This document shows, one piece after another, positions 12,897 through 28,579 of a DNA stretch of 30,921 nucleotides. Numbering within the stretch: position 1 is the stretch's first letter; each line of letters begins with the position of its first letter. The notes beneath the pieces were generated by a model. It made no database searches, was not told the DNA's origin, and saw only the letters and a list, made by a program, of their open reading frames with translations. Origin of the DNA: a virus; IMG/VR virus record IMGVR_UViG_3300042731_004499, positions 1 to 30,921 of that record; one strand, given 5' to 3'. Made by a program: the position numbers and the translations under genes.

Positions 12897-14138
12897 ATGA
12901 CCAACACCGAGACCCCTTCCACCCCTTCCTCCAACTCCAAGCCCCGCAAGTCGAAGAACAACGACATCACGCGGATCAAGGCGCCCAAGAGCCACAAGTA
13001 CCGCGGCGTCGACGTTCACAAGGTCGTGATCGTCGGGTTCGATACCGACAAGGATCTACACGACGCCGAGCTCGTGGAGCTAGGCGAGACCAACCCTAAG
13101 TTCCTGGCTGGCATGACCGAGGGCGTGTGGTGTCTCTGCGACGACGAGAGTAACGCCACTGAGCCGAGCGACAACCTCGTCGCGTCGATTCGATCCAAGA
13201 ATGAGGTCGAGGTCGCCGGCAAGCTGCTGCCCGTGCCGCTGACCAAAGCGACCGAGCACTTGGCCTACGTCGACGAGGCCGGCAAGGTCTGGCCGTTCTA
13301 CTTCGCGGTGGTCTACGGCCGCAAGCGGACCCGCGCCGATCGTGAGCTCGGGACCGGGATGACTTTCAAGGTCGAGACCGGCAATCTCAAGTCCGCCGCG
13401 TCGGACATGCTGATCGAGAACCTGGTCCGTCGCAGCTTCACCCCGACCGTCGAGGCCGAGAAGCTGGCCAAGCTCGCCGAGGGCGGAATGAGCTTGCAGG
13501 AGATCGCCGGCAAGCTTGGCGAGCACGGCAAGCACGGCAAGACCCCGACGGATCGAACCGTCGCCAACAAGCTCAAGCTCGTCAAGCTCACTGCGGCCGT
13601 CGCCAAGATGGTCGACTCGGGAGAGCTCAAGGTCACGAACGCCTACTCGGTCGCGGAGCTGCCCAAGGGCAAGCAAGCCGACGCCGCGCGCCAGGTCATC
13701 GAAAACAAGCTGACCACCGCGCAGACCAAAGCGCTGGTCAAGGAAATCACCGGCGAGAAGCCGAGCGGCGGCAAGCCCGTCGAGACAGACAATCTGTCCA
13801 GCGACGACTCGACCACGCCCGACGCTGGCGAGCAGCCGAGCGGCGAGAGTACGGCCTCCAAGAGCAAGCCCGAGGAGCCGAAGGCCCCCACCTTCGACTC
13901 GATCGAGATGACCAAGACGCAGCGCCCCAAGGCCGCGGACATCGACGAGATGATCGAGTACCTGATCGGCGACCGTTCGCCCATGCGCAAGCGTGCCCCG
14001 ACCAAGCTCGCCGCCGCCGCGCTGCAATGGGTCCGCGGCAACATGACCGAAGACGAGTTCTTGTACAAGGCCGCCGCGCTGTACAAGGTCAACGTCGACC
14101 AGCTCGCGCCGCTCCCCGAGGAGCCCGAGGCCGAGTAG
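12897..14138 (+). CDS. ParB/KorB-like DNA-binding protein, 413 aa
   Basis: Residues 1-30 are a disordered Ser/Pro/Lys tail. Residues about 136-230 match the ParB/Spo0J/KorB layout: GRKRTRADRE (141-150), an EN-x2-RR-x-FTP box (174-183), then a helix-turn-helix (LQEIAGKLGEHGKHGKTPTDRTVANKLKL, 200-228) and VAKMVDSGELKVTNAYSVAEL. A disordered acidic linker (285-325) leads to a small C-terminal domain. Such proteins bind palindromic sites for plasmid partition or as repressors. No ParA is in the window. The eight 13-bp palindromes are the obvious candidate sites. Transcribed from a leaderless promoter. Confidence 0.7.
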   Translation: MTNTETPSTPSSNSKPRKSKNNDITRIKAPKSHKYRGVDVHKVVIVGFDTDKDLHDAELVELGETNPKFLAGMTEGVWCLCDDESNATEPSDNLVASIRSKNEVEVAGKLLPVPLTKATEHLAYVDEAGKVWPFYFAVVYGRKRTRADRELGTGMTFKVETGNLKSAASDMLIENLVRRSFTPTVEAEKLAKLAEGGMSLQEIAGKLGEHGKHGKTPTDRTVANKLKLVKLTAAVAKMVDSGELKVTNAYSVAELPKGKQADAARQVIENKLTTAQTKALVKEITGEKPSGGKPVETDNLSSDDSTTPDAGEQPSGESTASKSKPEEPKAPTFDSIEMTKTQRPKAADIDEMIEYLIGDRSPMRKRAPTKLAAAALQWVRGNMTEDEFLYKAAALYKVNVDQLAPLPEEPEAE

Positions 14139-17999: not shown

Positions 18000-18320
18000 A
18001 TGGCATCTGGTGGAAACATGGTCAAGCCGCTGGCCTACGATGGTAGCGCGAGCGAGCAGACAATCAAGTGCGGCTTCACGCCGCGGACCGTTCGCGTCTA
18101 CAACATGACCGACGGGTCCGAGGTCTACACGTCGGATCACCTACAGGTTCACCCGACGGTGGCGAGTCGCGGTGGGCGCAAGACCAACGGCGCCGATGGT
18201 GTCGTGTCGTGGCTCGCGGCCGCGGCCGGGATCACGATCGTCGATGGCGGGTTCACGGTCGGCACGGACTCGGCCTGCAACGCAGCCGACACGCAGTACC
18301 ACGCGATCGTCACAAACTAG
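18000..18320 (+). CDS. Small beta-rich structural protein, 106 aa
   Basis: The start is the ATG after AAAGGAAAAAAGCAG, a strong ribosome-binding site. The sequence is beta-rich without charged helices (TIKCGFTPRTVRVYNMTDGSEVYTSD, then GITIVDGGFTVGTDSACN). The ending VDGGFTVGTD...YHAIVTN is a pattern I associate with small virion decoration or fibre-like proteins. It is followed directly by a tRNA-like element. High expression would fit a virion component. Exact role is unknown. Confidence 0.55.
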   Translation: MASGGNMVKPLAYDGSASEQTIKCGFTPRTVRVYNMTDGSEVYTSDHLQVHPTVASRGGRKTNGADGVVSWLAAAAGITIVDGGFTVGTDSACNAADTQYHAIVTN

Positions 18321-18326
18321 CGTGGT

Positions 18327-18379
18327 AAGCCCAGTCGGCGGGATGCCGATTGTAGTGGGTTCGATTCCCGCCTGGGCTT
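18327..18379 (+). ncRNA. Truncated tRNA-like element (53 nt)
   Basis: Acceptor-like arms AAGCCCAG (18327-18334) and CTGGGCTT (18372-18379) pair perfectly over 8 bp. Between them lie a 5-bp hairpin (TCGGC/GCCGA, loop GGGAT) and a 5-bp T-arm (GTGGG/CCCGC, one T-G pair) whose loop TTCGATT fits the TTCRANY consensus. There is no D-arm, and no CCA is encoded. It cannot be a normal tRNA gene. It starts six bases after the 18000-18320 stop. Confidence 0.65.
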
Positions 18380-18405: not shown

Positions 18406-18774
18406 ATGCCAGTTCACAACACACCAAAGTTCACATTGTGGCGGGATAACATCACCGCCGTGGAGACGATCGGCGCTCTGTCGGGTTCGCTCAATGGTGG
18501 ACTGAACTTCTCGGGCTTCGATCGTGCTGCGTTCATGGTCTACCCGAGCGGCGGTGCCCAGCCGACGATCGATGTCGTGGTCTGGGATCCGCTGACGCAA
18601 TCTTGGGTCGCTCCGCTGCCCGCGTCGGACTACACGTTCACCGCGCCAGCGCCCGACACTCCATTCACGTTCACCGTCCCGGCCTATGGCCGAGGGCTTT
18701 ATGCGTTCGTGTCCGCGCTCGCAGGCGGCTCGGTCGACATCGCGGCGGCCGGTCATGCTACCGGCACATGGTAA
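18406..18774 (+). CDS. Small beta-rich structural protein, 122 aa
   Basis: AAAGGGTAGATC precedes the ATG. The sequence is beta-rich with aromatic and Thr/Pro patches (PKFTLWRDNITAVETIGALSGSLNGGLNFSGFDRAAFMVYP, then DYTFTAPAPDTPFTFTVPAYG). The layout resembles a jelly-roll or Ig-like virion surface protein. It lies between two other beta-rich small genes and upstream of TerL. No family is recognised. Confidence 0.5.
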   Translation: MPVHNTPKFTLWRDNITAVETIGALSGSLNGGLNFSGFDRAAFMVYPSGGAQPTIDVVVWDPLTQSWVAPLPASDYTFTAPAPDTPFTFTVPAYGRGLYAFVSALAGGSVDIAAAGHATGTW

Positions 18775-20965: not shown

Positions 20966-22812
20966 TCATCGAACACATTGAAATCAACAAGACTCGGCGG
21001 CAACGTGAGCGGCGGTCCGACCCGCCCGAGGCGATGGACTTCGCCCAGGCGATGGCGGTCAGAGATCGCAGCGCGATGGAAACGATTTCGGGTGAGGTCG
21101 ACGCGCAGGCCAGGCAGACGCACACGGTCGAGACTGACGTGTCCAAGGCCGAGGTCGACAGTTCACAATCCGAGGTCACGAGCGCGAGGGGTGAGGGCGA
21201 GGCCGCACTGATCACGCCGATCTACGATTTCGGAACTCTCGTCAAGTCGATCGAGAGTAGCTCGAACCTGGGGCCGATCGTTCGGTCGATGGTGGCGAAT
21301 ACGGTTGGCTACGGCTACCGCACAGTCAAGCGAAAGAACGATGACATTTCGTCGGAGGATGATCAGTTCATCGACGAGCAGATCGGGTTTGAGAACTTCG
21401 CCAACTACTGTGGCCGCGACGTCGGTCTACTGCGGGTCCTCGAAGAGCTCGCGTGGGACTTCTACCTCACTGGCAACGCGTTCTGCGAGATCGTCCGCTC
21501 GCCTCCGACCAAAGTCAGGGGGCCAGACGGCAAGTACACATACAAGCCGGGGCGGATCGTCGGGGTCTACCGTGCGCAGGCGGCCAAGATGCGCATGACC
21601 ACGATGGAGGAAAGGCCGCACACGCTCAAGGTCAAGCAAATCAGACGAACCCGAGATGGCTACGTGATCCGCGAGGGGTACGACCAGAAACGGTTTCGCC
21701 GGTTCGCTGAGCTCAGCGCGAGCGGCTCGTCGTTCGAGTCTAGCGTGTCGACAAACCGCGTCTGGTTCAAGGAGTTTCAGGACAACCGGTTCTACTCCCG
21801 ATCGACCGGAGAGCTGCTCACTACCAAGCGAGAGATCGATCGTCACATTCGCACGGGCAACCTAGCGAACGAGATGATCCACTTCTCCAGTCCAGCGACA
21901 CGCGGTCCGTACGGCTTCCCGTACTACATCGGGAACCTCTCCGCCATCGCTGCCGACGTGCTCACGGACAACATCAATCTTGCGACCCTGAATCAGAACA
22001 TGATCCCGTCGATGGTCGTGCTCGTTTCTGGCAACGGTGCCCTGACTAAGGGTAGCTGGAATCGCATGACTGAGTTCACGAAAGCGAAGTTCTCGGGGCA
22101 CGACAACCGATCTCGGTTCTTGGTCCTTGAGGCCGAGCAGACCGGCGATATCGACGAGGACAACGGCAACCTGCGGATCGATATCAAGTCGCTGCACGAG
22201 ACGCAGAAAGACGATCAGATGTTCCAGGGCTACCGCGAGAATGCGCTATCCCTGGTCCGCGAGTCGTTCCGCTTGCCCGAGATTCTCGTGGGTCGTGGCG
22301 CAGCCGCGAGCGGTGTGGTCGTTGCTGCTAGCATGAAGTTGGCAGACGAGCAGGTGTTCGCGCAAGACCGCGATCTATTCGTCGATTGGATCAACCGTCG
22401 ACTGTTGCCCGAGATGGGCCTGGCTCGAATCACGATCGAGCTGAACAGTCCGAACGCGACAGACCCGGCGACGCTGGCGACGCTGCTCACGGCAGCCGAG
22501 AAGACCGGATCCATGACGCCCGAGATCAGCAAGATGATCATCGAGCGGGTGCTCGGGACAGACCTGCCCGCGTTCATGACTGCCGAAGATCTCGACGCGC
22601 TAAACAAGGCGCTAGGGACCAAGCTGATCTTCGATCCCAAGGTCCCGTTCACCCTACTCACGGCGCTGAATCAGAAGCGCCAGAACGAGGCAGGGGAGAA
22701 CAACCCTAGCGGGAGCGAGCAGCCGGATCGGGAGAGCAACGGCGCAGACCCGACAGAGCCCGGCCAGACAGTGATGGCCTCTCAGGGCCGCCCTGACGGC
22801 GGTGACGCTTGA
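20962..22812 (+). CDS. Portal protein, 616 aa
   Basis: The portal forms the dodecameric ring at the capsid vertex through which DNA passes. Family features resemble the PBSX/Mu-like portal group: LEELAWDFYLTGNAFCEI, MIHFSSPATRGPYGFPYYIGNLSAI, DNINLATLNQNMIPSMVVLVSG, and the long stem helix region VRESFRLPEILVGRG followed by ASMKLADEQVFAQDRDLFVDWINRRLLP. The first 85 residues are a charged extension (TRRQRERRSDPP). The C-terminus is disordered (GENNPSGSEQPDRES). The ATGA overlap with terL fixes the start. Confidence 0.9.
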   Translation: MIIEHIEINKTRRQRERRSDPPEAMDFAQAMAVRDRSAMETISGEVDAQARQTHTVETDVSKAEVDSSQSEVTSARGEGEAALITPIYDFGTLVKSIESSSNLGPIVRSMVANTVGYGYRTVKRKNDDISSEDDQFIDEQIGFENFANYCGRDVGLLRVLEELAWDFYLTGNAFCEIVRSPPTKVRGPDGKYTYKPGRIVGVYRAQAAKMRMTTMEERPHTLKVKQIRRTRDGYVIREGYDQKRFRRFAELSASGSSFESSVSTNRVWFKEFQDNRFYSRSTGELLTTKREIDRHIRTGNLANEMIHFSSPATRGPYGFPYYIGNLSAIAADVLTDNINLATLNQNMIPSMVVLVSGNGALTKGSWNRMTEFTKAKFSGHDNRSRFLVLEAEQTGDIDEDNGNLRIDIKSLHETQKDDQMFQGYRENALSLVRESFRLPEILVGRGAAASGVVVAASMKLADEQVFAQDRDLFVDWINRRLLPEMGLARITIELNSPNATDPATLATLLTAAEKTGSMTPEISKMIIERVLGTDLPAFMTAEDLDALNKALGTKLIFDPKVPFTLLTALNQKRQNEAGENNPSGSEQPDRESNGADPTEPGQTVMASQGRPDGGDA

Positions 22813-22816
22813 CGCG

Positions 22817-22850
22817 TTGCGGGCTCGCCTAACAACACGTAAGGTATAGA
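22817..22850 (+). promoter_or_regulatory. Late promoter element, copy 2
   Basis: TTGCG-N3-TCGCCTAACAACACG (22817-22839) matches copy 1 at 17430 with identical spacing, differing only in the three-base gap. A good -10 box, TATAGA (22845-22850), follows, and six bases later a TTG in frame with the protease gene. Confidence 0.6.
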
Positions 22851-22856
22851 CATACT

Positions 22857-24095
22857 TGGGTGGTGGAGATGACAACACAGAGGATCACGATCGACGTGAG
22901 TGTGGCGCCCGTGGAAGGGCTCGCCCCGAACAAGATCGATGGCGGCTTCACGTCGACCTCGGTTCGCAAGTCCTACGACGACGATGAGCAGATCATCACG
23001 TGCGTGGCGATGGTGGCGAACGAGATCGACGCGCATGGTGACATGTTCCTGCCGAGCGCCGTCAAGATGGCGGCTCACAACTTCTTGGCGCGGTACAACG
23101 TCGAGAAGCACATCGGCAAACAGCACGACCCCGACGCCGAGATTGACGCTGATCTGATCGGCTCGTTCTACACCGAGAAGGCGATCGAGTTCGCTGGTCT
23201 CGACGTGCCCGAGTTCGCTTGGGTCAGTCAGATCAAGATCAACGACAGTGAGACATGGAGCGAGGTCAAGAAGGCCGAGCGAACCGGCGTCTCGATCCAG
23301 GGCCCCGCGAAGGGCTGGGTCGTCGACGCGGATGTCGAAAAGTCGATTGGCGTCATGCTGGAAAAAGCGAAGGCGCACGAGTCGAAGTACACAAAACCGA
23401 AGAGGGTCTTCTCCGAAGCGGACCCGACGAATCTTGACGTAGTTGATGCGGGCGCAAATCTGCATCTTCTAGTCTGGAAAGCAAGGACATATCAGATGGC
23501 AGAAAAAACCACAGAGACAATCGCAACGCCGGTGGTCAAGGGTCTCGCTTCCGAGAACGAAGAGCCCAAGGTCGAGACCCCCGCGCCCGCGCCCGAGGCG
23601 AAGCCGACCGAGGTCGCCAAGTCCGAGACCGCGCCCGCTCCCGCTCCGGCGCCCGACGTCATCGGCGAGCTCACCGATGGCCTGACGCTGCTCAAGGCGT
23701 TCAAGGCTCTCGACCGAGAGAGCCTCGCGCTACAGCTGGCGGCGCTACAAAAGGCCCTCGGCGGCAATGCCCCGACGCCCGCCCCCGCGCCCTCGACCAC
23801 CGAGGTCGCCAAGTCCGAACGCGACGAGATCGCCGAGCTCAAGGCCGAGATCGCCAAGCTCAAGGGCGAGACCGTCGAGGATGAGAACGCCAAGCTCAAG
23901 GCCGAACTCGCCAAGCTCAAGGGCGAGGTCGAGGAGCTGAGCAAGGCCAAGGTCGCGCCCGCGAGCGGCGGCGACGAGCCGGCCCCCGAGGTCCAGACCG
24001 AGACCGAGGTCGCCAAGAAGCGATTCCCCGGGAACAAGATCGACGTCGACGGCCAGCTGTCCTCGATCCTCGGTCCACTCACTCGCCGGGGCTAG
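22857..24095 (+). CDS. Prohead protease fused to scaffold (XkdF-like), 412 aa
   Basis: Residues 1-205 resemble the XkdF-type phage serine protease: EQIITCVAMVANEIDAHGDMFLP, then ARYNVEKHIGKQHD (likely active-site His) and VKKAERTGVSIQGPAKG (likely Ser). Beyond residue 213 the protein becomes an Ala/Pro/Glu-rich coiled-coil scaffold (IAELKAEIAKLKGETVEDENAKLKAELAKLKGEVEEL). The protease matures the prohead by cutting the scaffold. Starts at TTG 22857, GTG 22860 and ATG 22869 are all in frame; I favour TTG or GTG. TTG would fit leaderless geometry, six bases after TATAGA. Confidence 0.75.
   Translation, partial: WVVEMTTQRITIDVSVAPVEGLAPNKIDGGFTSTSVRKSYDDDEQIITCVAMVANEIDAHGDMFLPSAVKMAAHNFLARYNVEKHIGKQHDPDAEIDADLIGSFYTEKAIEFAGLDVPEFAWVSQIKINDSETWSEVKKAERTGVSIQGPAKGWVVDADVEKSIGVMLEKAKAHESKYTKPKRVFSEADPTNLDVVDAGANLHLLVWKARTYQMAEKTTETIATPVVKGLASENEEPKVETPAPAPEAKPTEVAKSETAPAPAPAPDVIGELTDGLTLLKAFKALDRESLALQLAALQKALGGNAPTPAPAPSTTEVAKSERDEIAELKAEIAKLKGETVEDENAKLKAELAKLKGEVEELSKAKVAPASGGDEPAPEVQTETEVAKKRFPGNKIDVDGQLSSILGPLTRRG
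23496..24095 (+). CDS. Nested scaffold protein (internal start), 199 aa
   Basis: AAGGA sits eight bases before an in-frame ATG (MAEKTTETIATPVVKG) exactly at the junction between protease and scaffold parts. This is the arrangement of lambda C/Nu3, where the scaffold is made in excess from an internal start. The product is Pro/Ala-rich then coiled coil, and ends GQLSSILGPLTRRG. It would fill the prohead interior and be removed by the protease. The start is inferred from the ribosome-binding site and domain boundary. Confidence 0.6.
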   Translation: MAEKTTETIATPVVKGLASENEEPKVETPAPAPEAKPTEVAKSETAPAPAPAPDVIGELTDGLTLLKAFKALDRESLALQLAALQKALGGNAPTPAPAPSTTEVAKSERDEIAELKAEIAKLKGETVEDENAKLKAELAKLKGEVEELSKAKVAPASGGDEPAPEVQTETEVAKKRFPGNKIDVDGQLSSILGPLTRRG

Positions 24096-24117
24096 TCACT
24101 GAAAGGGTGAATGATAG

Positions 24118-24558
24118 ATGGCACTAAAGGGAATCATTCCGAAAGACATCATTGCCGCAAACAAGTTCACCCTTGCTGCGGACAATGACGAGATCCTGAT
24201 CACCGCGATCACGGGCGCCGAGGAGACGATCGAGACGGTCGAGCTACCCGACAAGACATCCGCGAGCGCTGGCCGGACGGAGATGTCCGAGGTCACGATC
24301 AAGATCCCCGCTCACGTTGACGAGAGCGTGAACTTCATGAACATCTGGTTCCAGGCTTGCAAAGATCCGGTGCAGCCTGGCGCCTACAAAACTTGCGTGG
24401 TCACTGCCGAGAGCTCGTCCGGCGGCACCGTGCGAACCTACACCTACGTGGGCGTCTTTCTCAAGGGACGCAAGACCCCGGACCACGCGCTCGAAGACGG
24501 CGCGACCATGACCGAGATCGAGTACACAGCCTCGATCGACGAAGTGTTCCACAGCTAG
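24118..24558 (+). CDS. Tail-tube-like or decoration protein, 146 aa
   Basis: The start is the ATG after GAAAGGGTGAATGATAG. It is beta-rich. The pattern EVTIKIPAHVDESVNFMNIWFQACKD, then VRTYTYVGVFLKGRKTPDHA and TEIEYTASIDEVF resembles the tube fold shared by phage tail tubes and Hcp proteins. Its place between scaffold and capsid genes, however, is where decoration proteins usually lie. I keep both readings open. The strong ribosome-binding site suggests abundant expression. Confidence 0.5.
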   Translation: MALKGIIPKDIIAANKFTLAADNDEILITAITGAEETIETVELPDKTSASAGRTEMSEVTIKIPAHVDESVNFMNIWFQACKDPVQPGAYKTCVVTAESSSGGTVRTYTYVGVFLKGRKTPDHALEDGATMTEIEYTASIDEVFHS

Positions 24559-24580
24559 CGCGAAGACAGGACCATAAATT

Positions 24581-25795
24581 ATGGCAACTCAAAGCGAAAA
24601 CCTCATTCAGACACTAGGGCTGGAGAAGGCCGAGATCAGCACCGAGAGTTTCGGCGCCGAAGAGGCCGGCAAGCTACCGCCCAAACTCGCCGAGCGATTC
24701 GAGCAGTACGTCCGACAGCTGACGACGCTGAACGGCAACGTTCGGATCGAGACCTTCCGCAACGAAGAGTGGGAGAGCCACGAGATCAGTCTCGGCAAGC
24801 GCATGGCCATGAGCCACCGCGAGGCCACCGACCCGCAGCGTCGGCGCGGCGTCTCGCACAAGAAGCTCGTGCTCAAGCCGTCCGAGATCGTCGTGCCGCT
24901 GGAGATCACCGAGCGCTACATGAAGCACAACCTGACGGGTGCTTCGGCCGAGGACATGATTCTCCAGATGATCGCTCGCGCGTTCGCCAACGACCGCGAG
25001 GATCTGTTCCTGAACGGCAACCTACTCGGGCATGCGTCGCTACAGAGCGACCTGTTCGAGGGCGGCTCGACCACCGGGTTCGTCAAGGACGACTACCTCG
25101 GTCTACAGCAGGGCTGGTCCGAGCTGGCCGAGGGCGGAGTCATCCTCGACGCCGAGGGCTCGAACATCTCGCCCGCGCTGTTCAACCGCGCGATGCAGGT
25201 GCTACCGGAGAAGTACCAGCGCGACCTTCCGTCGATGCGCTTCCTGCTTCCGACGATCCTCGATCACAAGTACAACGAGAAGATCGCCCAGCGCCAGACG
25301 GCCGGCGGCGATGCGGCTCTCGCTGGCGCGGACGGTCAGGCGTTCGGCATTCCTCGGGTGAAGGTCCCGCTGTGGAACTTCTACCCGATCGTGACCGAGC
25401 ACGTCACGCTGAACGGCACCACCGCCGTCCAGCTCAAGAACAAGCCGATCAAGGAGATCGTTGCGGTCACCCCGTCCGATCTCGATCTCGTTCCCGTCGC
25501 GGCCTTCGAGGAGGGCACGGACTACACAGTCGATCTGACTGAGGGTCTGATCGCGCGTGACGGCGGCGGCTCGATCGGTGACGGCGCGACCGTCAAGGTC
25601 ACCTACCGCGCCATGCCGCAGATGTTGTTCACCAACATGAACAACCTGATCATCGGCATCGGTCTGGATGTCACGATCCTTCGGAGCAAGGACATCTACC
25701 GCAACGTGGATCAGTACGCCATGCACGCTCGTGTCGGCGTTCAGATCCAAAACGTGGACGCGATCGTCAAGGTCAAGAACATCGGGGACGGCTAA
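24581..25795 (+). CDS. Major capsid protein, HK97 fold, 404 aa
   Basis: The order of parts fits an HK97-type capsid protein: a helical N-terminus (residues 1-60), a long E-loop region (WESHEISLGKRMAMSHREATDPQRRRGV), a spine helix (EDMILQMIARAFANDREDLFLNGN), and P/A-domain segments (LFNRAMQVLPEKYQRDLPSMRFLLP). Residues about 283-341 (IKEIVAVT to GATVKVTYRA, with GTDYTVD) look like an extra beta domain inserted near the end. The position after protease/scaffold is standard. A tRNA-like element follows the stop codon. Confidence 0.88.
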   Translation: MATQSENLIQTLGLEKAEISTESFGAEEAGKLPPKLAERFEQYVRQLTTLNGNVRIETFRNEEWESHEISLGKRMAMSHREATDPQRRRGVSHKKLVLKPSEIVVPLEITERYMKHNLTGASAEDMILQMIARAFANDREDLFLNGNLLGHASLQSDLFEGGSTTGFVKDDYLGLQQGWSELAEGGVILDAEGSNISPALFNRAMQVLPEKYQRDLPSMRFLLPTILDHKYNEKIAQRQTAGGDAALAGADGQAFGIPRVKVPLWNFYPIVTEHVTLNGTTAVQLKNKPIKEIVAVTPSDLDLVPVAAFEEGTDYTVDLTEGLIARDGGGSIGDGATVKVTYRAMPQMLFTNMNNLIIGIGLDVTILRSKDIYRNVDQYAMHARVGVQIQNVDAIVKVKNIGDG

Positions 25796-25805
25796 TCCCT
25801 GATCA

Positions 25806-25850
25806 GCCACGCTGGTGCGTAGGGGGCGGGTTCGATTCCTGCCCCGTGGC
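25806..25850 (+). ncRNA. Minimal tRNA-like element (45 nt)
   Basis: GCCACG (25806-25811) pairs with CGTGGC (25845-25850). Inside is a 7-bp arm, GGGCGGG/CCTGCCC (one G-T pair), with loop TTCGATT, a perfect T-loop. No D-arm or anticodon arm is present; a 12-base linker stands in their place. It starts 11 bases after the capsid stop. This is an acceptor plus T-arm minihelix, similar in kind to the element at 18327-18379 but not a copy of it. Confidence 0.6.
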
Positions 25851-25873
25851 ATTTCATCACTCAACCCAACCGC

Positions 25874-25886
25874 CGAAACGATTTCG
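25874..25886. repeat. CGAAA-N3-TTTCG site 7 (centre CGA)
   Basis: A perfect copy, identical to sites 1, 3 and 5 on the other strand. It lies just before the ribosome-binding site of the gene at 25897, so a bound protein could affect it. Confidence 0.7.
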
Positions 25887-25896
25887 GAGACCTACA

Positions 25897-26532
25897 ATGA
25901 AGCGATACCCAAACTGCAAATACGCCATGGTCAAGCTCGTCGGCCGCAAGCGCGCTACCTCGTTCAAGTACACGTTCGATTCGCGCGGCGAGCTGTTCCA
26001 GCGAGTCACCGACCTAGCGATGGTCGATTGGTGTTTGTCGAATCAAGGATTCGTCGTTCACCAGTACGACGCGAGCGGCAAGCTACTCGCCGAGTCGGGC
26101 CAAACAACGCCCGTCAAGGCGCAGCCCGTCAAGGTCGTCAAGGCCGGAATCGGCAAGAACGAAAACTGGAGCATGCTAGAGCTCGAAGTTCCCGAGCAGC
26201 CGAAGACAGCAAGCGAGATCGAGCAAGAGTGGCTGGCCGAAGAGATCGAGGCCGAGCGTCAGCGCGAGGCCGCCGAGAAGCGCGGCGAAGCTCCGAAGAC
26301 CGAACAGACCGAGATCGGCAAGGTGGTCGACGAGGCAGGCGAGCACCCGCTCATGCGCCACGTGTTCGGTGACGACTGGTCCGACAGCGACAACAACTTC
26401 AAGCTACAGGCCGCGGCGCGCAAGCGCGGGATCGACTTCGACAAGTCGGCGACCCGTGATGAGCTGATCGAGATGCTTCGAGCGAGCGACCGAGCTCGCG
26501 CAGAGCGTGGGGAGAATGGAGAAAGCGAATGA
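25897..26532 (+). CDS. Hypothetical protein with C-terminal SAP/HeH-like motif, 211 aa
   Basis: The start is the ATG of MKRYPNCKYAMVKLVGRK after GGAGACCTAC. The N-terminal 75 residues are alpha/beta. A charged helical middle (ASEIEQEWLAEEIEAERQREAAEKRGEAPK) follows. The last 45 residues (NNFKLQAAARKRGIDFDKSATRDELIEMLRAS) resemble a HeH/SAP helix-extension-helix motif, often seen in small phage proteins next to the capsid gene. It might bind DNA or the head. A frame starting at 25846 crosses the tRNA-like element and is rejected. Confidence 0.6.
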   Translation: MKRYPNCKYAMVKLVGRKRATSFKYTFDSRGELFQRVTDLAMVDWCLSNQGFVVHQYDASGKLLAESGQTTPVKAQPVKVVKAGIGKNENWSMLELEVPEQPKTASEIEQEWLAEEIEAERQREAAEKRGEAPKTEQTEIGKVVDEAGEHPLMRHVFGDDWSDSDNNFKLQAAARKRGIDFDKSATRDELIEMLRASDRARAERGENGESE

Positions 26533-26972
26533 GGCTCCATAGGATGCCGAGTCGCATGACTCCACAGACGCTACAGCGAGGCTCCAAGTCAATCATGCTT
26601 CGCGCCGGCAGGGTTCCGAAGATGGACGGCAAGCCCGTCGAGCTGACACAGGAAGAACTGGTCCAGCTCCGGCGATCTGGAATCGTCCCGACCGAGCAAG
26701 CGAAGCCACGTCCGTTCGTTCGCAAGATTGCATTCGAACTGCGCGACCTTGGCGTCACGCTGAACGCCACGATCAAGGATGTACCGCAAGAAGAGATGCG
26801 CACCGGAGAGCATATCCCCAACCCCGGACCCGAGATGGTTGAGATCGAGGTCGACGACGAGCTTGGCAAAGAAGACAGTGCGCCAAGGGAACCGATCGCT
26901 GCGAACCTGGGAAGCGAAGGTTGGGAAATGATCGGGTTACCGGACGTCCCGGTTGAGACTAAGGCCGACTGA
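26529..26972 (+). CDS. Hypothetical head-region protein, 147 aa
   Basis: ATGA overlap with the gene before. The N-terminus is basic (MRLHRMPSRMTPQTLQRGSKSIMLRAGRVP) and the C-terminal half acidic (PEMVEIEVDDELGKEDSAPREP). The segment KPVELTQEELVQLRRSGIVPTEQAKPRP looks like a small helix-containing linker domain. Position between capsid and connector genes suggests a virion or assembly role. No family is recognised. Confidence 0.55.
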   Translation: MRLHRMPSRMTPQTLQRGSKSIMLRAGRVPKMDGKPVELTQEELVQLRRSGIVPTEQAKPRPFVRKIAFELRDLGVTLNATIKDVPQEEMRTGEHIPNPGPEMVEIEVDDELGKEDSAPREPIAANLGSEGWEMIGLPDVPVETKAD

Positions 26973-27412
26973 TGCCAGCTCAGCGCTGCCAAAAAGACGG
27001 AAAATCTGGATGGCGTTGGGGAAGCGCCGGCAAATGCTACACGGGCCGCGGAGCGAAAGCTAAGGCCGAAAAACAGGGCGCCGCAATAGAGGCCCAAATG
27101 GAGAAATCAAAGATGTCGAATCCGAAACTACTGACCACGATCGTGAACAAGGCATTGCTCGACATGGGCACATCTGAAAACCTCGATGAGTTCAATAATG
27201 CAATGCGTAACGCTGCGCGAGAAGCCCACCCAACAGGAGAGTGGATCTGGATCGCGCAGATTTCGCCCAGCAAGGTAGTCGTGAGCGTCAACTCGCAGAC
27301 GAGCTATTCGTACTTCGAGCATACTTGGACAATCGAAGACGGAATGCCAAAACTCGGCGCCGAAGCTACCGAGGTCGTGCCCAAGACCGAGTACAAACCC
27401 AAGCGAGGCTGA
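26972..27412 (+). CDS. Hypothetical protein with CYTG motif, 146 aa
   Basis: TGATG coupling sets the start. The first 40 residues (QKDGKSGWRWGSAGKCYTGRGAKAKAEKQGAAIEA) form a motif that recurs in tailed-phage head-region proteins, often at ends of proteases or capsid-associated proteins. The rest (about 50-146) is an alpha/beta domain with strands (EWIWIAQISPSKVVVSVNSQTSYSYFEHTWTIEDG). Role is unknown; the two Cys in the motif may bind metal. Confidence 0.55.
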   Translation: MPAQRCQKDGKSGWRWGSAGKCYTGRGAKAKAEKQGAAIEAQMEKSKMSNPKLLTTIVNKALLDMGTSENLDEFNNAMRNAAREAHPTGEWIWIAQISPSKVVVSVNSQTSYSYFEHTWTIEDGMPKLGAEATEVVPKTEYKPKRG

Positions 27413-27413
27413 G

Positions 27414-28142
27414 ATGGCTGTTGTCTCTATTCAGGATATTCGTGACGCTGGCATTGACGCGAGTGTCGCGGACGACGACGCGGTACAAGACGCGATCGAC
27501 GAATGCGAAGAGATCTTCAACACCGAGACCGGGCAGTTCTTCGAGCCGGTCCAGGCGACGATGGTCCTGGACGGAGACAACACCAGCTCATTCTTCCTCG
27601 CGGTTCCGGTGATCTCGGTCGACTCGATCACTGACAATGAGAGGTCGGTGACTCTCGACGCTGAAAGCTACCGCGTCTATGCGGGCCGGCAGCACGGGAT
27701 CAACGACGACCGGCGCAACCCCAGGATCTACGGTAAGAACGGGACTACGTTCTACTACGGACCTGGGCGTTGGTCTATCGTCGGCACGTTCGGATACACC
27801 GAGCCCGACGACTCCGCGCCGCGTCAGGTGAAGTCGGCAATCATCGCGCTCGTGATTGACAATCTGCTGACGCCCGTGATCGAGCCGGCGCAAGACCTAC
27901 CGCAGATCAACGAAGACCTGCTAGGCGTCGGACCAATCACCGAAGAGGTCACGGACGATCACAAGCAAAAATACGCGTACCTCAAGAAGCCGTCGCCGTG
28001 GGATCCATACGAAGCGGCGAGCAAGATTCCGAAGGTGCGCAGGGCGATCAAGAACTTCCGCGCTCCGTTCGGGATCGCAGCTCCGACGTCTTTCGTCGCT
28101 CGAACCGACACCGCGACATTCTTCCCGTTCAACACCTACTAG
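27414..28142 (+). CDS. Head-tail connector (adaptor) protein, 242 aa
   Basis: The layout fits the HK97 gp6 / SPP1 gp15 adaptor class: helical N-terminus (SIQDIRDAGIDASVADDDAVQDAIDECEEIFNTETGQFF), a central beta region (VPVISVDSITDNERSV), and a helical bundle (RQVKSAIIALVIDNLL). A C-terminal tail of about 70 residues follows. The adaptor binds under the portal. Position two genes before the sheath-side genes supports the call. It starts two bases after the previous stop. Confidence 0.7.
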   Translation: MAVVSIQDIRDAGIDASVADDDAVQDAIDECEEIFNTETGQFFEPVQATMVLDGDNTSSFFLAVPVISVDSITDNERSVTLDAESYRVYAGRQHGINDDRRNPRIYGKNGTTFYYGPGRWSIVGTFGYTEPDDSAPRQVKSAIIALVIDNLLTPVIEPAQDLPQINEDLLGVGPITEEVTDDHKQKYAYLKKPSPWDPYEAASKIPKVRRAIKNFRAPFGIAAPTSFVARTDTATFFPFNTY

Positions 28143-28150
28143 GGGCCGCC

Positions 28151-28579
28151 ATGCGACGACCGAGACTGCTACATCCGTTGACTGTTGTGATCGAGCCGCT
28201 CGACAAGGGCGCGACCTACTACGACGACGACACGCGAGAGCAGATCCAGACCCTCGGTCGGTCGGCGGAGGTAGAGATCCCCGCGCAGGTCGAGTATCGA
28301 GACTTCGTACAGCACGGTCAAGCCGACGCGACTTGGGACCGCGGAGGGTACATCGGAGAGGAGCGCGGCTACATCCTGATCAGGTACATCGACGCGACCG
28401 AGCGTGGCTACACGCCGAAAGTCGGCGACAAGATCACGCTGATCGGAAAGGGCGCCGAGGTCTCCCAGCCAATGGCCACGTTCGTGCATCGCCTCAAGCC
28501 AACAATGCACACGCGTCGATACGGCAAGACGGGCGTCAAGCTGTACTTCGCAGACAGGAAGCCCTCGATCAATGGCTGA
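28151..28579 (+). CDS. Head closure / stopper protein, 142 aa
   Basis: The ATG follows GGGGCCGCC. It is a small beta-barrel-like protein (LTVVIEPLDKGATYY, VEIPAQVEYRDF, GYILIRYIDATERGYTPKVGDKITLIG), in the position and size of SPP1 gp16 / HK97 gp7 head-completion proteins that close the DNA channel. The overlap of eight bases with the next gene supports joint expression. The call rests mostly on order and size. Confidence 0.6.
   Translation: MRRPRLLHPLTVVIEPLDKGATYYDDDTREQIQTLGRSAEVEIPAQVEYRDFVQHGQADATWDRGGYIGEERGYILIRYIDATERGYTPKVGDKITLIGKGAEVSQPMATFVHRLKPTMHTRRYGKTGVKLYFADRKPSING

Follow-up and report, generated by a model that had tools for sequence, protein, structure and literature searches.

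In mitochondria, tRNAs (tRNA punctuation) and tRNA-like structures (t-elements) stand at transcript borders, and cuts by RNase P and RNase Z at these structures make the ends of mRNAs and rRNAs; t-elements have been described in plant mitochondria and, upstream of 5S rRNA, in Haloferax volcanii (PMC11658184, PMC4326828). The long noncoding RNAs MALAT1 and NEAT1 carry at the transcript end a tiny tRNA-like structure, mascRNA or menRNA, which RNase P and RNase Z cut on both sides (PMC12941219), and host RNase P is known to cleave the RNA of phage M3, the C4 antisense RNA and the dimeric pre-tRNAs of phage T4 (PMC11143913). Here, we describe two mini tRNA-like elements in a 30,921-nucleotide (nt) stretch of viral DNA (IMG/VR record IMGVR_UViG_3300042731_004499; hereafter the window): element 1, at 18327-18379, and element 2, at 25806-25850, both on the plus strand. 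By sequence and predicted fold, they are members of a widespread and unannotated class of phage mini tRNA-like elements. We think it somewhat probable that the two act as minimal tRNA-like marks that punctuate the polycistronic mRNA of the phage, with host RNase P and a 3' tRNA nuclease doing the cutting.

Element 1 is 53 nt long. Direct reading gives an acceptor-like stem of 8 base pairs (bp), in which AAGCCCAG (18327-18334) pairs with CTGGGCTT (18372-18379); enclosed by these strands are, in order, the middle hairpin TCGGC-GGGAT-GCCGA (18335-18349), a linker TTGTA and the T-arm GTGGG-TTCGATT-CCCGC (18355-18371). A first-pass annotation made from the letters alone had drawn the same stem, hairpin and T-arm, and its coordinates and helices are exact. 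It had also set the element 6 nt past the upstream gene and denied that it is a tRNA or encodes CCA, and both statements hold: the TAG of that gene lies at 18318-18320, ARAGORN finds neither a tRNA nor a transfer-messenger RNA (tmRNA) in the window, and the window sequence has no CCA and no U-tract 3' of the stem. The next ATG is 26 nt beyond the element. No Rfam family reaches its gathering score on element 1; the top sub-threshold matches are mascRNA-menRNA (RF01684; 21.5 bits and E=0.04, against a gathering score of 42.5, so that element 1 does not qualify as a member) and tRNA-Sec. BLAST of the element in phage records returned a single chance match, adjoining the element, and a narrow pattern built around it returned none. 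It is matched with E=1.8e-6, however roughly calibrated, by the covariance model R3, which holds no window sequences and was built solely from two loci introduced below (L067 and L054), seeds that came from a pattern with a fixed T-loop.

Element 2 was first pointed out by a covariance model. It is also matched, with a similarly rough E-value of 7.7e-5, by model R2, whose seeds are short elements from other phages and likewise include no window sequences. R2 and R3 each recover one of the two window elements in full, not both. From 5' to 3', element 2 reads GCCACG, CTGGTGCGTAGG, GGGCGGG-TTCGATT-CCTGCCC and CGTGGC, with a D-loop-like GG in its UGGU motif (25813-25816, assigned by direct reading and comparison with the class) and with an alternative pairing of 5 + 8 bp. 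It begins 10 nt past the stop of a capsid-like gene (24581-25795), the ATG at 25897 is 46 nt on, and the window sequence has neither an encoded CCA nor a following U-tract. A small hairpin, CAGC-CAC-GCTG (window 25800-25820), adjoins element 2 and competes with its acceptor stem; it could be a switch.

The two elements differ in type, the first bearing a stem in its middle and the second being of the short UGGU kind, and share an acceptor/T stack of 13 bp as well as a GG (in the GGGAT loop and in UGGU, respectively). When the motif is defined as a coaxial acceptor/T stack of 13-14 bp with no G-U pair in the acceptor, two copies are present in the window; 200 dinucleotide shuffles gave 0.01 on average, and no shuffle contained two or more. 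Two such motifs per 31 kb exceed what chance would lead one to expect. Both copies are intergenic, though intergenic sequence makes up about 5.6% of the region.

The same plan recurs in many other, unrelated phages. A scan of viral contigs with a pattern taken from element 1 led to L067 and L054, both of which carry three short elements of this plan ahead of small genes, and BLAST with their elements then brought in Streptococcus prophage Javan227 as well as Streptomyces phages. Members of the class are about 40-55 nt long. Their acceptor/T stack measures 11-14 bp, with 12 the commonest value, and is capped by a T-loop UUCGANN; a short connector holds UGGU or a hairpin with GG in its loop, there is no anticodon arm, and CCA is rarely encoded. 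Two further scans gave 153 distinct non-tRNA matches, with stack lengths peaking at 11-13 bp and a stack of at least 12 bp in 72 of them, compared with 8.9 when the 3' flanks were swapped among matches. Searched with a pattern that joined UGGU to one T-arm sequence, viral contigs yielded 24 loci and 84,980 prokaryote genomes yielded two. In the right arms of the Streptomyces phages Kaine, RedBear and Endor2, we count 9, 7 and 9 T-arms, and all 25 elements are intergenic and on the sense strand. Current tools pass over the class: no Rfam 15 family matched in the class loci tested, and ARAGORN made two calls across the class loci, a genuine-looking tRNA-Met in L377 and the annotated tRNA-Arg of Endor2 (L209 4379-4461; MT711979.1 44378-44460). 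The latter overlaps the next gene and looks wrong, a mini element between genes that was miscalled.

One of the two loci from prokaryote genomes is a 7-kb contig from a Lachnospiraceae bin (L156; CAMIYN010000067.1, 1-6997), with seven pattern matches; its 11 T-arm cores fall, with few exceptions, at gene junctions. A search of 149 further genomes from the family gave no match at E<=1e-5 and, together with the gene layout of the contig, suggests that it is probably a phage fragment. The 5' acceptor strand of its elements often overlaps the upstream stop codon.

If the fold matters to these phages, then its helices should be kept as their sequences change. The search that found the L156 elements did not require an acceptor stem, and yet an acceptor of at least 6 bp is present in all seven, where derangements give at most one. 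Among 21 distinct elements of the Streptomyces set, 252 of 252 cells are paired and 53 double changes are seen, against 16.8 in shuffled alignments, and slid controls collapse; here, the search demanded the T-stem and asked for neither the acceptor nor the connector pair. A mixed set, A5, gives the same result and weighs less because its members had been picked for pairing. (Alignments were made with MAFFT on equal-length, N-padded sequences.) These comparisons indicate that the stem structure of the class is under selection. They also bear on the reading of the elements as decayed tRNA genes or remnants of integration sites, which the tRNA-like T-arm sequences and the frequency of tRNAs in phages would suggest. 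Decay does not account for stems that covary through many double changes, nor for many copies in one operon with differing acceptors and a strict sense, intergenic placement; we consider this origin very unlikely and reject it, as the covariation contradicts it. We saw no full tRNA homolog of the elements, and their sequence likeness to tRNA is limited to the T-arm.

Which tRNA arm is missing? The first-pass annotation called element 1 D-arm-less, and this is probably backwards. Connectors of the Streptomyces set contain a single covarying pair (C-G or G-C, 11:10) that closes a loop NGGCA; outside this set, UGGU lies near the acceptor, including in many elements that had not been selected for it. 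Because the GG matches the D-loop G18G19 in both place and motif, the middle piece is probably a reduced D-arm, and the part that was lost is the anticodon arm. The middle hairpin of element 1, with GG in its loop, is D-arm-like by comparison with L067 and the GG loop of the Streptomyces elements. The hairpin stem CGGC/GCCG is common to element 1 and L067 (CGGC-UGGU-GCCG, where the loop is UGGU itself), and we infer that the two hairpins are homologous. The retained half would thus be the part of a tRNA that end-processing enzymes read, and the lost half the part that decodes.

Placement was examined in the 92 elements that the patterns had found and whose stack was 12 bp or longer; genes were taken from greedy, uncurated open reading frame calls. 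Sixty-one of the 92 begin close to where an open frame of at least 50 amino acids (aa) stops, against 16 for random places and 16 for the opposite strand, and 64 of 80 testable elements fall outside predicted genes (random, 23%). Of the flanking gene pairs, 40 are +/+ and 1 is -/-, and the median gaps are 5.5 nt (upstream stop) and 40 nt (next start). A typical element begins no more than a few nucleotides from a stop codon, ends about 20-80 nt ahead of the next start and lies in sense between co-directional genes; like t-elements, it is a tRNA-like structure on the sense strand at a gene border. GC-rich hairpins between genes might also be intrinsic transcription terminators. Terminator hairpins are followed by a U-tract, and this is not enriched here (TTTT occurs in the 10 nt downstream of 2 of the 92 elements, against 3.1 at random), nor would termination explain the conserved T-loop. 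We regard terminators as extremely improbable and have set them aside.

The position in sense just past stop codons, the presence of an element at nearly every junction of some operons, and the retention of the half that RNase P and RNase Z recognize make punctuation by tRNA-end enzymes the best reading. Bacterial RNase P cleaves model hairpins that comprise an acceptor stem, a T-stem and a T-loop (PMC11143913), and the enzyme measures the acceptor/T stack from the elbow, with a tRNA value of 12 (PMC4919913), close to which the stack lengths of the class peak. We envisage that the folded element would display the tRNA elbow and the acceptor/T stack, that host RNase P would cleave on the 5' side, at or just past the upstream stop codon, and that RNase Z or another 3' tRNA nuclease would cleave on the 3' side. 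The operon would thereby be split into mRNAs with defined ends, each ending at a stop codon and beginning with a short leader. In the window, the predicted cut points are after the capsid-like gene and after the gene at 18000-18320. More speculatively, where the 5' acceptor strand lies over the stop codon, as in L156, a terminating ribosome would open the element, which could couple cutting to translation. The first-pass annotation had proposed that element 1 may mark a cutting point or protect a 3' end, and this idea is partly supported by the wider evidence of placement, strand and retained tRNA half, once the element is relabelled anticodon-arm-less and seen as one of two. For the class as a whole, we give about even chances to the proposal that many tailed phages place a minimal tRNA mimic, made of acceptor, GG connector and T-arm, between genes and let host tRNA-end enzymes split their operons, as a counterpart of mitochondrial punctuation.

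Uncut elements might instead serve as compact structured ends or barriers, which shield the mRNA from exonucleases or insulate the translation of neighbouring genes. Stable stems directly past stop codons would suit this role, for which any stable hairpin would be enough, so that it leaves unexplained why the conserved loop is UUCGANN, why the connector has GG and why the stack is about 12 bp long; we hold it to be unlikely. Alternatively, the elements could be decoys that, released or still attached, bind RNase P, T-loop modification enzymes or tRNA-cutting defences to the benefit of the phage. The retained elbow half and the crowding of several elements into a short stretch in some phages (L178, below) are in keeping with decoys, which would have no need of a sense-strand site beside the stop codon at each junction and which, having no anticodon loop, would not mimic the targets of anticodon nucleases. 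This, too, seems quite unlikely.

Several observations speak against punctuation by cutting. The tRNA-like fold of element 1, at -25.6 kcal/mol, lies 0.9 kcal/mol above a competing minimum-energy hairpin, in a calculation that leaves out the T-loop/D-loop contact. The acceptor of element 2 forms in about 20% of the predicted ensemble when the flanks are included, because an upstream pairing competes with it. The virus has two elements only, not one per junction. In the set of 92, CCA follows the discriminator in 2 elements; a 3' RCCA aids many bacterial RNase P reactions. Finally, no T-arm is found at the site homologous to element 1 in two distant relatives (L121 and L122), whose upstream gene is 44% identical. 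The first-pass annotation had made conservation of the stems in related phages a test of its idea; looked at indirectly, the site is without a T-arm in the two distant relatives, but across the class the stems covary strongly.

The search for relatives gave these two, which have no element, and a second metagenome record of the same virus; no close relative was among the finds. The second record (L219 1-6882) is 99.985% identical to window 21308-28189 and so was rejected as an independent copy of element 2. A search with the large terminase subunit TerL (P0003) gave zero relatives in viral contigs and remote ones only in phage records. All genes flanking the two window elements are on the plus strand. 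Element 1 lies between two genes of unknown function, encoding 106 aa (18000-18320) and 122 aa (18406-18774). The product of the gene upstream of element 2 (24581-25795) is head- or capsid-like (phrog_1623, E=5.9e-50, with a weak match to Pfam Phage_capsid), and the gene downstream (25897-26532) encodes 211 aa from the ATG at 25897. A ParB-like protein (phrog_1033) is coded upstream of the late region, at window 12897-14138.

Other loci showed related arrangements. A prophage-like contig carries four mini elements in about 600 nt (L178 3703-4273, minus strand), and in related Streptococcus prophages an element lies in a region of about 1 kb with few genes (L149 897-1863). L019 (540-3520, minus strand) has, ahead of several small genes, a recurring hairpin, GGGGCTATCGCCCC, with TTGTTT after it; two tRNA-like elements are also present. 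A recurrent pattern match in L159, L163, L166, L168, L170, L171 and L174 has no acceptor helix and was excluded from the class. Arthrobacter phage Suppi (with CCA), the archaeal virus His2 and prophage Lj965 (L147 1449-1540, L148 1390-1528 and L150 1446-1530) encode bigger, strange tRNA-like RNAs, in which the T-arm is normal and the middle is not, with ARAGORN silent on those of Suppi and His2; these three are of another kind and were likewise excluded.

If host enzymes do cut at these elements, then a general layer of phage gene expression has gone unnoticed and unannotated, since tRNA finders look for an anticodon arm. Such a layer would account for the way in which phages with long operons fix their mRNA ends and reach unequal mRNA levels by means of essential host enzymes. 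The class is testable in the cultured Streptomyces phages Endor2, RedBear and Kaine, and its members would be natural minimal substrates for work on RNase P and RNase Z.

We did not find a phage version of such punctuation in the open-licence literature, and an earlier report elsewhere is possible; the repeated, anticodon-arm-less phage version appears to be new, while the logic of punctuation is already known from organelles and from single RNAs. Canonical tRNAs are four-arm cloverleaves with an anticodon, whereas the class elements have no anticodon arm. The tRNA-like domain of tmRNA comes close in architecture, with an acceptor stem, a GG D-loop region, a T-arm and no decoding anticodon arm, but tmRNA has a long mRNA-like part and, in most bacteria, alanine identity and an encoded CCA. 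The M3, C4 and T4 substrates of RNase P are individual stable RNAs, antisense RNAs or tRNAs, whereas the phage class is a repeated mark between protein genes. The mascRNA-menRNA structures resemble element 1 in being tiny and tRNA-like, as its top Rfam match reflects, and differ in belonging to animal long noncoding RNAs, in having an extra hairpin at the anticodon position and in being single copy. Like t-elements, the phage elements are tRNA-like structures at gene borders; unlike them, they have no anticodon arm, measure 41-53 nt and occur at many junctions of one operon, where their cutting is a prediction.
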